52,563 nt of DNA, from the NCBI GenBank assembly GCA_005888335.1, contig VAWY01000130.1:1-52563 (forward strand). Reading direction: 5' to 3'. The DNA is from Actinomycetota bacterium (GTDB lineage: Bacteria; Actinomycetota; Thermoleophilia; Solirubrobacterales; Solirubrobacteraceae). Of the stretch, positions 29,104-33,552 are shown piece after piece. Every line of letters starts with the position of its first letter. The stretch's first letter is position 1. The notes beneath the pieces were generated by a model. That model worked only from the letters and a program-made list of their open reading frames with translations, was not told the DNA's origin and made no database searches. The position numbers were made by a program, and so were the translations under genes.

Positions 29104-30750
29104 ATGCTTGCTGGTCCCACGACCGATCGCCCGTCGCGGGCGCGGCCGGTCGCCGACGCGCCGGTCGCCGCGCTCGTCGCCGCGGCGGAGGACCTCGCGA
29201 AGGGCTGGCTGCTCGAGCTCGTCGCCGCCGGGCCGCTGGACGCCGCCGCCGCCCTGCCGTTCGCGGAGCTCGCGCGCGAGGGGCCGGCGCTGTGCGCGGC
29301 GGTGGCGCGCGGCCTGCGCGACGATGCCGAGCTCGCCCGCCTCGCGCCCGGCGGCGACCTCGCCCCGCTCGCCGCCCGCGCCGGCGCCCTGGCCGGGGCG
29401 CGCGATGCGGCGTCGGCGGTCGCGGCGATCGACGCCCTGCGCCGCGTCCTCTGGGAGGCCGCGCTCACGGAGCTCCCCCGCGCACCCGGCACCCTCGTCG
29501 CCGACCTCGCCGACCGCCTGGCCGCAACCTCCGCGACCGTCGTCGCGGCGACCCTGTCACCGCGCTCCCCCGCGCCCGCCCCGCCCCCGACCGGCGAGCC
29601 CGCCACCTCCCCGCCGGGCTCGCCGGCCCCGGGGGCTTCGGCGCCCGACCTCGCCGGCGAACCGGATCGCTTCGCCGACGCCGGCGGCGCGTACGACGGC
29701 GCGGCGGCGGCGGCCGGCGAACCGGATCGCTTCACCGACGCCGGCGCGGACCGGCCGCCGCGCGAGCCGGCTCGTGCCGCGGGTCGCCTCGCCGCGGGCG
29801 GCGGCGCGTACGACGGCGCGGCGGCGGCGGCCGGCGAACCGGATCGCCTCGCGGCGGCCGACGCGGACCCCGGCGAGTTGGCCGACGTGGCTGATCGCTT
29901 CGCCGGCGGCGCGCACGACGGCGCGGTGGGCGCGGCCGACGAATCGCACCGCTTCTCGGCGGCCGATACGGAGCCCGGCGCGCCGCTCGACGCGACCGAT
30001 CGCTCCGCCGGCGGCGGCGCGGACTACGGCGTGGCCGAGGAACCGGCTGGGTCCGCTGAAGACGACGCGGACGAGCCGCCGACCGAGCTCGCCGGCGGCA
30101 GGCCGTCCGGCGGCGGCCGCGGTCGCAGCTGGTTCGGGCGGCGCGGGCGGGACGTCGAGCAGCTCGCCGAGCTCACGCGTGCCGTCGCCGAGGCGCGGGT
30201 GCGGGTCGCCGACCTGCGGGCCGAGCGGCCGGCGCAGATCGTCCGGCCGCCGCTCGGCGACGAGTCGTTCGGCGACGGCAGCCCGCCGCGGGTCGCGGAC
30301 GGCGATCCGCGGATCCATCTCGCCGCGCGCACGGCGGAGTTCGTCGCTGACGGACGGCCGTTCGCGGTGCTGCTCGTCGAGCTCGACGGGGTCGAGGCGC
30401 TGCTGGCGGCCGAGCGCGACGACGAGATCGCGCGCGCCGTCGACGCGGCCGAGCGGGCGCTGGAGGACCTGGCGCGTCCCGGCGACGCGATCCGGCGCGA
30501 GGCGCCGGGCCGGCTATGGCTGACGCTCCCGGGCGCGGGTCCGGCGGGCGCGCGGGCGCTCGCGCTGCGCGCGGCGGCCGCGGTCGAGCGGGCGGCCGAT
30601 CATCGCGGGCGGCCGCTGACGGCCACCGTCGGCGTCGCGGTGTGCCCGCGCGACGGCACGGACGCCGACGCGCTCGCCGAGCACGCCGAGGACGACCTGC
30701 TCGCGGCCCAGGCGGCCGGCACGCACGGCGGGGAGCCACCCGCCGTGTGA
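29104..30750 (+). CDS. Repeat-containing protein with degenerate GGDEF-like domain
   Basis: 548 aa, soluble. Residues 1 to about 155 are a helical Ala/Leu-rich region. Residues 165-330 are low-complexity and built of imperfect repeats around GGAYDGAAAAAGEPDRF. A basic segment RSWFGRRGRD and a short coiled stretch lead to a C-terminal domain (about 405-540) with FAVLLVELDGVEALL and TATVGVAVCPRDGTDADALAEHAEDDLL, the frame of a GGDEF domain. At the place of the GGDEF motif the sequence reads EAPGRLWLTL, so cyclase activity is lost. It may bind a nucleotide or act as a scaffold. It is divergent from moeA. Confidence 0.75.
   Translation: MLAGPTTDRPSRARPVADAPVAALVAAAEDLAKGWLLELVAAGPLDAAAALPFAELAREGPALCAAVARGLRDDAELARLAPGGDLAPLAARAGALAGARDAASAVAAIDALRRVLWEAALTELPRAPGTLVADLADRLAATSATVVAATLSPRSPAPAPPPTGEPATSPPGSPAPGASAPDLAGEPDRFADAGGAYDGAAAAAGEPDRFTDAGADRPPREPARAAGRLAAGGGAYDGAAAAAGEPDRLAAADADPGELADVADRFAGGAHDGAVGAADESHRFSAADTEPGAPLDATDRSAGGGADYGVAEEPAGSAEDDADEPPTELAGGRPSGGGRGRSWFGRRGRDVEQLAELTRAVAEARVRVADLRAERPAQIVRPPLGDESFGDGSPPRVADGDPRIHLAARTAEFVADGRPFAVLLVELDGVEALLAAERDDEIARAVDAAERALEDLARPGDAIRREAPGRLWLTLPGAGPAGARALALRAAAAVERAADHRGRPLTATVGVAVCPRDGTDADALAEHAEDDLLAAQAAGTHGGEPPAV
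29683..29847 (+). repeat. Two perfect 48-bp direct repeats inside the coding sequence
   Basis: Copies at 29683-29730 and 29800-29847 are identical at all 48 positions and are 117 bp (39 codons) apart, so in frame. They encode GGAYDGAAAAAGEPDR. Perfect identity in a drifting low-complexity region suggests recent duplication or gene conversion, and potential for copy number change. Confidence 0.9.
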
Positions 30751-30905: not shown

Positions 30906-31589
30906 TCAGCCGTTCGGCCGGCGCGCCGTCGCGGCGGGCGGCCGCGGCGCGACGCCGATGCGCGACGTCTGGCGGACGCCGAGGGCTTGGGCGGTCGCGG
31001 AGGTGATGTCATACGAGGCGCCGTTGGCGAACGGGCCGCGGTCGACGACCGGAGCGACGAGCGAGCGGCCGCGGAAGAAGACCTGGACCGGCGTCCCGCA
31101 CGGGAGCGTGCGGTGCGCGACGCCGATCGTCGTGGTCGTCAGGCGGCCGCCGCAGGCCAGCCGGCGGCCGTAGAAGCCGGGGCCGTACCAGGTCGCGCGC
31201 GCAGGGCGAAAGACCGTCACCTGCGCGACCGTCGGGGCCTCCGACGCGCTCGCGCCATCGCCGCCGGGCTCGCGGATCGCCCGCACGGTGAACGTGCCCG
31301 TCGCATCGCCCGGCCACGTCGCCGTGAAGGCGCCGTCGCCGTCGGCGGCGGCCTCGGCGACCGCCGACCACGTCCCCGTGTCGTCGTCGAAGCGCTCGAC
31401 GCGCACCTGACCCGCGCCTCCCGCGACCGTCCCGCTCCACCGGACCGGCCCGCCCAGCAGGCCGCCTGGGGTCAGCGCGGCGAGCGGGGGCGCGTCGAAG
31501 GCGGCGCCGCCGGTGTCGTCGGCGCGCGCCGCGGCAGGTGCGGCCAGGACGGCGGCAAGCGCCAGCGATGTCGCAAGTCTCGATCTCAT
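30906..31589 (-). CDS. Secreted RlpA-like double-psi beta-barrel protein
   Basis: 227 aa. ATG 31589 gives a signal peptide (MRSRLATSLALAAVLAAPAAARA). Residues 45-127 resemble a small beta domain. Residues 131-214 form the RlpA-like double-psi barrel: ATWYGPGFYGRRLACGGRL, RTLPCGTPVQVFFRG and VAPVVDRGPFANGASYDIT, with the conserved Asp183-Arg-Gly. RlpA-type proteins are peptidoglycan-active or peptidoglycan-binding, here extracytoplasmic. The leader contains a c-di-AMP riboswitch whose 3' end is only about 9 nt before the ATG. No Shine-Dalgarno is obvious, so the riboswitch could act on initiation. Confidence 0.86.
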   Translation of the reverse strand: MRSRLATSLALAAVLAAPAAARADDTGGAAFDAPPLAALTPGGLLGGPVRWSGTVAGGAGQVRVERFDDDTGTWSAVAEAAADGDGAFTATWPGDATGTFTVRAIREPGGDGASASEAPTVAQVTVFRPARATWYGPGFYGRRLACGGRLTTTTIGVAHRTLPCGTPVQVFFRGRSLVAPVVDRGPFANGASYDITSATAQALGVRQTSRIGVAPRPPAATARRPNG

Positions 31590-31598
31590 GTCGTCGGC

Positions 31599-31742
31599 GC
31601 CTGCGGGGTGAGCTGACGGGCTCGCGCTGCGGAGAGCAGCGCTACGGCTCAAAGCGAGCCGATTCGCCCCAGCGGACAGGCGTCCGCGACGGTTCCCCCG
31701 CCGTCCGCGCCCGGGGGCGCGGACGTTCGGCGGCCGACAGGC
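31599..31742 (-). ncRNA. c-di-AMP riboswitch (ydaO/yuaA type)
   Basis: On the minus strand the conserved blocks of this class appear in order: GCCGCCGAACG (31734-31724), a GC-rich hairpin (31725-31702), GGCGGGGGAACCG (31702-31690), GGGGCGAATC with a following stem (31670-31654), and finally CGAGCCCGTCAGCTCACCCCGCAGGC ending at 31599, here described by its parts CCCGTCAGCT and CGCAGGC. The ends can close as GCCTG (31742-31738) with CAGGC. ydaO riboswitches commonly control cell wall hydrolase and RlpA-like genes in Actinobacteria and turn expression off with c-di-AMP. The 5' boundary is approximate. Confidence 0.88.
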
Positions 31743-31754
31743 TACCGGACCGGC

Positions 31755-32165
31755 TTACGGACGCAGGCGACGAAGCACGGACTTGACCGTGTGGCGGCCG
31801 ATGGTCGCGCCGACCTGGGCGAGCTCTCCGGCGGCCCGGACGGCGCTCTCCAGCACCTCGGCGCCGCTCGGCGGCTCGACCGGCCGGGGCGGCGGATCGT
31901 CGCTCGGGACGCTCGCGCCGACCGGCCGCGGCCGGGACGGGGGCGCCGCCTTGGCCCTGGCGGCGGCCGGCGCCTTGCTGCGCGGCTTCGCGGCCGGTGT
32001 CGCCGCGCGCGCCTTCGCGCCCGCCGCCACGGGCGTCCTCGCCGGCACCCCACCGTCGGCCGACGGCCCGGCATCGTCGCCGCCGCCGCGCTTCGCGCTA
32101 CGGCGCTGCGGGCGGCTGCGAGGGAGGCTGGTGAGGACTTCGCTGCGATCGTCGTCGGCGGGCAT
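31755..32165 (-). CDS. Low-complexity Ala/Pro/Lys protein, function unknown
   Basis: 136 aa. The middle (about residues 40-95) is a disordered, basic Ala/Pro/Lys/Arg stretch that resembles DNA- or RNA-binding tails. The C-terminus, SGAEVLESAVRAAGELAQVG followed by ATIGRHTVKSVLRRLRP, is an amphipathic helix pair. No family was recognised. It is divergent from the principal sigma factor gene and ends just before the riboswitch leader of the RlpA gene, so read-through into the riboswitch is possible. Confidence 0.6.
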   Translation of the reverse strand: MPADDDRSEVLTSLPRSRPQRRSAKRGGGDDAGPSADGGVPARTPVAAGAKARAATPAAKPRSKAPAAARAKAAPPSRPRPVGASVPSDDPPPRPVEPPSGAEVLESAVRAAGELAQVGATIGRHTVKSVLRRLRP

Positions 32166-32300: not shown

Positions 32301-32328
32301 TTGACTTCAAGTGGTCCACACGTACTAT
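32301..32328 (+). promoter_or_regulatory. Promoter of the principal sigma factor gene
   Basis: TTGACT (32301-32306) and TACTAT (32323-32328) with a 16-nt spacer are close to the sigma-70 consensus, the best promoter in the window. The start of transcription near 32335 gives a leader of about 114 nt and rules out any in-frame start at 32311. Confidence 0.85.
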
Positions 32329-32448
32329 CGTGGAGTTCGTTCGGGGTCGCCTCAGGCGGACGGGTCCTCTGTCCGGGCAACGCCGACACTCAGATCTGAA
32401 GAAGTCCGCCGGAGCGACGGCTTCGGCGCCCGAGCAGAACGGAACTGG

Positions 32449-33552
32449 ATGTCAGTCGTAGAGCTGCAGGAACTCGAAGAGGTCAAGGTCCTCCTGGCCA
32501 AGGGCCAGCAGCTCGGCGTGCTCACCCATGCCGAGATCCAGCTGGCCACGCAGGAGCTCGACCTCGACGAGACCGACCTCGAGGAGCTCACCCAGTTCTT
32601 CGAGTCGCAGGAGATCGAGCTGGTCGAGGACATCGATCCGGCCACGGCTGCCAGCAACGAGGTAGAGCGCGCGCCCGACAAGCGCGGCCGCCGAGCCAAG
32701 AAGGCGACGCTGGACCTCCGGCCGGACATGACCACCGACTCGCTCCAGCTGTTCCTGAAGGACATCGGGAAGGTCCGACTCCTGACGGCGCAGGAAGAGG
32801 TCGATCTCGCCAAGCGCATCGAGCGCGGCGACCTCGACGCCAAGCAGAAGATGGTCGAGTCGAACCTGCGGCTGGTCGTCTCGATCGCCAAGAACTACCG
32901 CAACCAGGGGCTGCCCTTCCTCGATCTCATCCAGGAGGGAACGCTCGGTCTGGTGCGCGCCGCTGAGAAGTTCGACTACCGCAAGGGCTTCAAGTTCTCG
33001 ACGTACGCGACCTGGTGGATCCGACAGGCGATCGCTCGCGCGCTCGCCGACAAGGCGCGGACGATCCGGATCCCCGTGCACGTCGTGGAGAAGCTCAACA
33101 AGATCGGCCGGGCCGAGCGCAAGCTCGTCACCGAGCTGGGCCGCGAGCCGACCGCCGAGGAGATCGCCGACGTCACGGGAATCGATCCCGAGGAGGTCGA
33201 GTCGATCAAGCGCAGCGCGCAGGCGCCGGTCAGTCTCGAGAAGCCCGTCGGCGACGAGGAGGAGTCGGAGTTCGGCCAGTTCATCGCCGACGAGCGCGCT
33301 GAGTCCCCGTACGAGCGCGCGGCCGAGATCCTCACCAAGGAGGCGCTGCGCGAGGCACTGGAGAACCTCTCGTACCGCGAGCGGCGTGTCCTCGAGCTGC
33401 GCTACGGCCTGGGCGGGGAGCACCCGCGCACGCTCGACGAGGTCGGGCGGACGTTCAACGTCACGCGCGAGCGCATCCGCCAGATCGAGAACCAGTCGCT
33501 CAAGAAGCTGCAGAGCCTCGCCGAGGCCCAGAAGCTCAGGGACGTGGCGTAG
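32449..33552 (+). CDS. sigA: RNA polymerase principal sigma factor (SigA/RpoD)
   Basis: 367 aa. Region 1.1-like N-terminus ([20 protein letters not shown]) precedes region 1.2 ([21 protein letters not shown]), region 2 ([26 protein letters not shown] and [21 protein letters not shown]), region 3 and region 4 ([35 protein letters not shown]). It directs transcription from housekeeping promoters. ATG 32449 is the first start after the mapped-by-sequence promoter; it opens [12 protein letters not shown]. The gene is monocistronic, closed by a strong terminator. Confidence 0.96.

Follow-up and report, generated by a model that had tools for sequence, protein, structure and literature searches.

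The window, by which we mean the whole 52,563-nucleotide stretch of DNA analysed, carries on its minus strand a c-di-AMP riboswitch aptamer that ends next to the start codon of an rlpA-like gene. The locus is composed of the following features:

30906..31589, minus strand: rlpA-like gene (227 aa), with a signal-peptide-like N-terminus and a C-terminal double-psi β-barrel
31584..31587, minus strand: GAGA, spanning the G of the ATG and the second codon; no other 4-nt stretch around the start is complementary to the UCUC loop
31590..31598, minus strand: spacer GCCGACGAC between GCAGGC and the ATG, without a Shine-Dalgarno sequence (SD) and without a docking strand
31599..31604, minus strand: conserved 3' motif GCAGGC (GYAGGC), the 3' side of P1, 9 nt before the ATG
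31598..31732, minus strand: c-di-AMP riboswitch aptamer from P1 to P1 (RF00379), placed by covariance score and model pairs
31631..31635, minus strand: UCUCC loop of the last aptamer hairpin, which in relatives pairs with an SD-bearing tail
31739..31744, minus strand: predicted -10 hexamer TAGCCT, whose final T lies 7 nt upstream of position 31732, where P1 begins
31755..32165, minus strand: upstream gene (136 aa) with no match in Pfam; its relatives occupy the corresponding position in other loci
32311..33552, plus strand: divergent rpoD-type sigma-70 gene, a conserved neighbour of the locus in relatives

The rlpA-like protein begins with MRSRLATSLALAAVLAAPAAARA, which resembles a signal peptide by eye. 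The initial annotation had placed the aptamer before a secreted double-psi barrel gene, and the DPBB_1 domain (PF03330) is indeed recognized in the product at 38.4 bits, above the cut-off of 28.8; an Ig-like match is weak and lies under its cut-off. The product also matches the solved DPBB protein PA4485 (structure 4avr, E 3e-10). The gene is a member of the RlpA/DPBB_1 family by domain, and its lytic activity is putative. A protein search scored 7994 candidates and yielded 2750 relatives at E <= 0.001; the best 120 of the 2750, which were listed, include proteins named 'rare lipoprotein A' from members of Solirubrobacterales and Solirubrobacteraceae.

The upstream 136-residue protein has relatives (E <= 1e-3) in 12 loci, some of which are the same place found twice. 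The divergent rpoD gene lies close by in at least 24 of 179 loci, and the aptamer motif is missing from L015, one of the rpoD-linked relatives. In L019, from a contig titled 'Chlamydiae bacterium', the rpoD gene is 92.6% identical to that of the window and the aptamer-rlpA layout is the same; the contig is probably mislabelled or mis-binned Solirubrobacterales. On the other side of the locus, a downstream convergent ORF (29104-30750, plus strand) matches GGDEF below the threshold (20.9 vs 23.8 bits), and is possibly a degenerate diguanylate cyclase adjoining the putatively c-di-AMP-controlled gene.

When the window is scanned with cmscan against all Rfam families, RF00379 is the sole hit (31742-31583, minus strand). 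Its score of 58.2 bits exceeds the gathering threshold of 38 (E 5.4e-11), and the hit spans model positions 1-134, which is the full model. All 26 consensus pairs are standard, one of them G-U, and the ydaO/yuaA class proposed in the initial annotation is thus upheld. The GCC/GGC pairs of P1 are standard in 79/79, 75/79 and 78/79 aptamers, respectively. The match covers the ATG because the model carries a 15-nt tail past P1; in many relatives this tail is a purine-rich SD tract, and in the window it is occupied by the spacer and the start codon. The ATG (31589-31587) is 9 nt from GCAGGC (31604-31599), as had been estimated, and 8 nt after the last P1 base (31598). An alternative in-frame TTG at 31652 lies within the window aptamer; in relatives, the downstream ATG is forced by an in-frame stop at the end of the aptamer.

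The loop-tail pseudoknot of the solved RNA is absent in the window, where the best match of the loop extends over 4 bp and overlies the AUG. The assignment to RF00379 holds despite the missing pseudoknot, because the latter is outside the model pairs and because the aptamer binds without a platform, as stated in the available portion of PMC10907184. The window element is a genuine c-di-AMP (ydaO/yuaA) riboswitch, and from its sequence we infer that the window RNA binds the ligand. Nothing was found in favour of a chance or degenerate look-alike, which the E value of the match and the recurrence of the aptamer before orthologous genes in dozens of genomes make exceedingly improbable.

After duplicates were collapsed, 89 distinct aptamer-DPBB leaders were collected, the window included, mainly from Solirubrobacterales; they are defined by the aptamer 3' motif before a DPBB gene and come from genomes that were not randomly sampled. 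The motif is absent from 20 DPBB loci, several of them of other phyla. Aptamer positions were taken from 79 of 92 RF00379 matches, the other 13 being dropped as duplicate, gene-distant, cut off or weak. An initial regular expression for the 5' motif caught 45 of the 89 leaders, and Rfam coordinates were used instead. Start codons were inferred by a heuristic choice, and the line of -3 kcal/mol used to call an SD is arbitrary.

The genome-contig scan gave 67 loci. The first 40 of them were examined in two sets of 20, in which 17 and 7 loci, respectively, contain RF00379. An alignment search found protein relatives in 209 of 232 genomes, and we used 30 returned loci and 60 more from the top of its list, mostly one per genome. 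RF00379 was present at E <= 0.001 in 17 of the 20 loci submitted from the 30, and in 18/20, 14/20 and 18/20 of the other 60, with a few such matches falling below the gathering score. RF00379 is present in each of 61 genomes sampled from the order to which one relative belongs, and in 13 of 80 genomes of a phylum draw. The c-di-AMP synthase (diadenylate cyclase) domain PF02457 occurs in 11 of 12 related genomes. The rigid pattern GYAGGC-N4-12-ATG has 34 matches in 30 of 299 genomes and none in the reversed control; it counts neither SD-less leaders nor starts, because several matches have GAAAGAG-type SDs and in others a better start than the matched ATG exists.

The predicted -10 box at 31744-31739 belongs to a recurrent arrangement. 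A TANNNT hexamer starts at -25 to -11 before P1 in 63 of 78 leaders (one of the 79 aptamers lacks 60 nt of upstream sequence), compared to 7/78 and 1/78 in equal windows further upstream. A -35 box was looked for by eye in the window, with no clear match. Transcription probably starts at about 31732, the first P1 base, and given the position of the -10 box the leader is probably made of the aptamer and about 8 nt more. An extended P1, in which the spacer pairs with bases just 5' of the aptamer, is seen in the fold of the window. It was dropped because it stays at the permuted level in 78 leaders (1.08 vs 0.98, with 22.5% of permutations as high) and because the 5' bases sit in the promoter discriminator.

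Neither a terminator nor an SD had been noticed between the aptamer and the ATG, and the search for both bears this out. A run of five T within 100 nt after the aptamer occurs in none of the 89 leaders, window included, and a run of four T in seven; a scan of the window spacer finds no complementarity to the anti-SD (0 kcal/mol). Control could instead be exerted on transcription or mRNA stability, by Rho, pausing or an RNase, and not on translation. Blocked translation can expose Rho sites. The S. coelicolor rpfA riboswitch is reported to cause premature transcription termination without a canonical terminator, according to the accessible parts of PMC10117811 and PMC9960051. However, all 89 leaders lack the room or the U-tract for an intrinsic terminator, the transcript level of a C. 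glutamicum nlpC reporter was unresponsive (PMC9960051, in the text available), and the covariation of SD docking in relatives, described below, points to translation. We consider control at the level of transcription or stability unlikely.

Other c-di-AMP riboswitches of the phylum were surveyed as well. A census of 52 RF00379 loci in 9 genomes contributed 42 leaders that are new beside the earlier loci; a heuristic start lies within 42 nt in 35 of the 42 (median 22), and 30 of these 35 have an SD. Among 23 loci of other Actinomycetota, the top-ranked start lies at 17-30 nt in 10, and a run of five T occurs within 150 nt in 4. In L271, L272, L283 and L273, from the phylum draw, such runs lie about 47-90 nt after the aptamer and fit classical terminator platforms.

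In many relatives, the tail after GYAGGC contains a purine-rich SD that is complementary to the loop in the final hairpin of the aptamer. The pairing was scored in 73 of the 89 leaders (eight without a clear hairpin and eight with long hairpins were set aside), where the matched loop-tail score of 13.14 exceeds the permuted value of 10.96 (sd 0.32), with none of 1000 permutations as high. For the 37 leaders with an SD, the corresponding values are 13.76 and 11.59 (sd 0.47), again with 0/1000 as high. The two strands change together, as in the compensatory loop/tail pairs CUCUUUC/GAAAGAG, CUCGUUC/GAACGAG, UCGUUC/GAACGA and UCAUCCG/UGGAUGA, and CUCGUCG/UGACGAG in L117. A loop-tail match of at least 5 bp is present in 39 of the 53 leaders outside the SD-less class; in these 39, the docking strand mostly begins 3 to 6 nt past the motif, and in 32 of them it includes GAG, GGA or AAG.

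The crystallised ydaO RNA, whose sequence is printed in PMC5393176, has an 8-bp loop-tail match 3 nt after the motif, and the available text of that paper mentions a pseudoknot in the RNA. The docking in the relatives is therefore the known pseudoknot, used on the SD. It agrees with the CTCC-GGAG pairing proposed for C. glutamicum nlpC in the accessible part of PMC9960051, and also with that of PMC10907184, which places ydaO among the interdomain-docking riboswitches. In this commoner layout, folding of the aptamer would pair the loop with the SD tail and so hide the SD. Six leaders (L145, L149, L253, L265, L267 and L269) have a strong SD (GGAGG) with CCTC a few bases later, as seen by eye; a small hairpin between aptamer and start could by itself hide the SD there.

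The window belongs to an SD-less class of 22 among the 89 leaders, in which the AUG lies at most 18 nt away by the heuristic start choice. If only leaders with one possible start are considered, 19 combine an AUG at 9 to 24 nt with the absence of an SD. The median spacing between aptamer and start is 12 nt in SD-less leaders and 23 nt in those with an SD (p 2e-8), and the structure around the start is weaker in the SD-less class, at -7.1 vs -9.0 kcal/mol (p 0.0014); both p values ignore kinship. The SD-less spacing is variable: the chosen starts range from 9 to 18 nt, and in one case a pair of AUGs lies at 6 and 9. The AGG of GYAGGC is the only anti-SD match near the AUG in SD-less relatives (about -2.6 kcal/mol); because the spacing varies, we do not put it forward as an SD.

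Loop-tail pairing in the SD-less class is at chance (10.52 vs 10.19 permuted, 226/1000 as high), and single members retain a helix (7 bp in L117, 6 bp in L222, L167 and L239). The aptamer might thus be kept for other reasons or be decaying, control of rlpA having been lost with the docking strand and the SD. The chance-level pairing favours such a loss, as do the lower scores of several SD-less aptamers, down to 35.6 bits in L241. Those lower scores, however, are due in part to the absent tail; several of the matches are local and cover model positions 12-118. Conservation of the core also speaks against a loss: the 20-nt 3' motif is without mismatch in 17 of 22 SD-less leaders vs 20 of 47 SD leaders, and both inner blocks are kept in all 22. 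The aptamer core of the SD-less class is as well kept as elsewhere, and we regard a lost output as rather improbable.

A quick protein tree of 89 rows requires nine changes of the SD-less state, at least four of them forced by well-supported branches. The window falls in a clade of mixed states together with L001, whose start is a GTG at 27 nt. In L001, whose rlpA relative is the closest to that of the window, a four-codon mini-ORF (AUG ACC CUG UGA) overlaps the GTG start.

Several leaders have no conventional start codon. In L228, L229, L232, L257, L258, L260 and L264, there is no ATG, GTG or TTG from the in-frame aptamer stop to the signal-peptide core, and the only NTG found in L228 and L232 is inside the hydrophobic stretch. 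The same seven genes have an AUC 18-21 nt past GYAGGC, behind a GAGG or GAG tract, which suggests conserved AUC starts. In the related L204, L213 and L220, an in-frame CTG follows AGAGG with no NTG nearby, and a CUG start is possible; an in-frame stop at the aptamer end rules out upstream starts in L204 only, not in L213 or L220. We do not claim that an SD compensates for a non-AUG start. A comparison of AUG with non-AUG by SD gives p 0.22 among single-candidate starts, and p 0.008, a value that ignores kinship, only after the addition of 10 leaders without an NTG start.

In the window, the initiation region lies beside the aptamer with no separate platform, terminator or SD, which is the arrangement of direct occlusion; an SD platform complementary to an aptamer loop, which defines interdomain docking, is lacking. 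With no terminator, SD or docking strand, direct occlusion is the simplest remaining output. The mRNA leader would be nearly all aptamer, and the variant in the window would have lost the SD and the tail strand, leaving the AUG at 9 nt. The 30S subunit needs space that includes the 8 nt upstream of the AUG. The ligand-bound, folded aptamer would sit within this footprint and block initiation at the AUG directly, so that control in the window would act through access to the start codon, as the initial annotation had considered possible. Since the riboswitch class is described as OFF in the available part of PMC11481543, high c-di-AMP should switch the gene OFF and lower RlpA. That the riboswitch controls translation of the secreted RlpA-like protein, with direct occlusion and an OFF response in the window variant, is a proposal that we hold to be evenly poised.

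Secondary structure alone shows no switch, as the accessibility of the AUG hardly differs between the free leader fold and the constrained one. In the solved RNA, the tail pseudoknot is part of the structure, and its absence may lower affinity or switching. Alternatively, the UCUC loop could pair with the GAGA of AUGAGA, the start codon taking the place of the SD strand. The window offers a 4-bp UCUC/GAGA helix at +2 to +5, and helices over the AUG can be formed in L167 (6 bp) and L244 (4 bp). Against this, L183 has the loop of the window without a complement, and in 20 SD-less leaders the score for -6 to +8 around the AUG is 9.2 vs 8.36 (sd 0.54), with 128 of 2000 permutations as high; for two narrower regions, 1031 and 808 of 2000 permutations are as high. 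Such docking on the start codon appears doubtful.

Returning to direct occlusion, we speculate, and would not yet bank on it, that the c-di-AMP aptamer of Solirubrobacterales repeatedly shed its SD-docking pseudoknot and became a direct-occlusion switch for SD-less starts. The leader would be all aptamer, the folding of an RNA of about 135 nt beside the AUG would be the sole regulatory step, and AUC and possibly CUG starts would be tolerated.

The window resembles the ydaO/yuaA (kimA) riboswitch (PDB 4QLM/4QLN) in its covariance match, model pairs and conserved blocks, and both have a last hairpin with a CUC-containing loop. The solved ydaO RNA has the 8-bp loop-complementary tail, whereas the window has neither a tail strand nor a terminator, and its AUG is at 9 nt. 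The ydaO-type riboswitch of C. glutamicum nlpC (RSnlpC) is reported as translational in the accessible text of PMC9960051. Both RSnlpC and the window come from Actinomycetota and have a cell-wall target, no canonical terminator and translation as the proposed level of control; RSnlpC has a GGAG ribosome-binding site with a proposed pairing to the aptamer CTCC, whereas an SD is absent from the window leader. Streptomyces rpfA and other hydrolase genes with ydaO-like riboswitches (PMC10117811, PMC11481543 and PMC8079986, each in the part available) share with the window secreted cell-wall proteins as targets. Unlike the window gene, the six S. lividans targets given in the available part of PMC8079986 are hydrolases, peptidases and a transglycosylase, none of them named RlpA there. 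The direct-occlusion group described in the accessible part of PMC10907184 (SAM-II, Tte preQ1-I and others) has in common with the window that the aptamer itself would be the block, with no separate platform. SAM-II and Tte preQ1-I, however, hide the ribosome-binding site inside a compact aptamer, whereas in the window a large aptamer stands beside an SD-less AUG.

Control through the start codon had been called unusual for this class. That judgement stands for an SD-less AUG near the aptamer, and not for translational control as such, for which nlpC is a precedent (PMC9960051, in the text available), nor for short distances, which are common in Solirubrobacterales. The downstream terminator expected for the class does not fit Solirubrobacterales, and the novelty lies in the SD-less form only. 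The window element is a known family in a new architectural form, in which the SD-docking strand is missing and the AUG is close to the aptamer. A search of open-access literature for c-di-AMP, riboswitch and Thermoleophilia jointly found none, and 'rare lipoprotein A' was found with neither ydaO nor riboswitch among the matches listed in open-access full text.

If the proposal is true, docking and direct occlusion are both used by one riboswitch class on a single orthologous gene, many natural intermediates exist, and the locus offers a natural series of start-site designs that share the same aptamer. How close aptamer and start must be, and whether an SD is required, for the ligand to stop initiation would become testable; such questions are usually argued from few model RNAs. 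RlpA-like proteins would then join the cell-wall functions under c-di-AMP in Actinomycetota.
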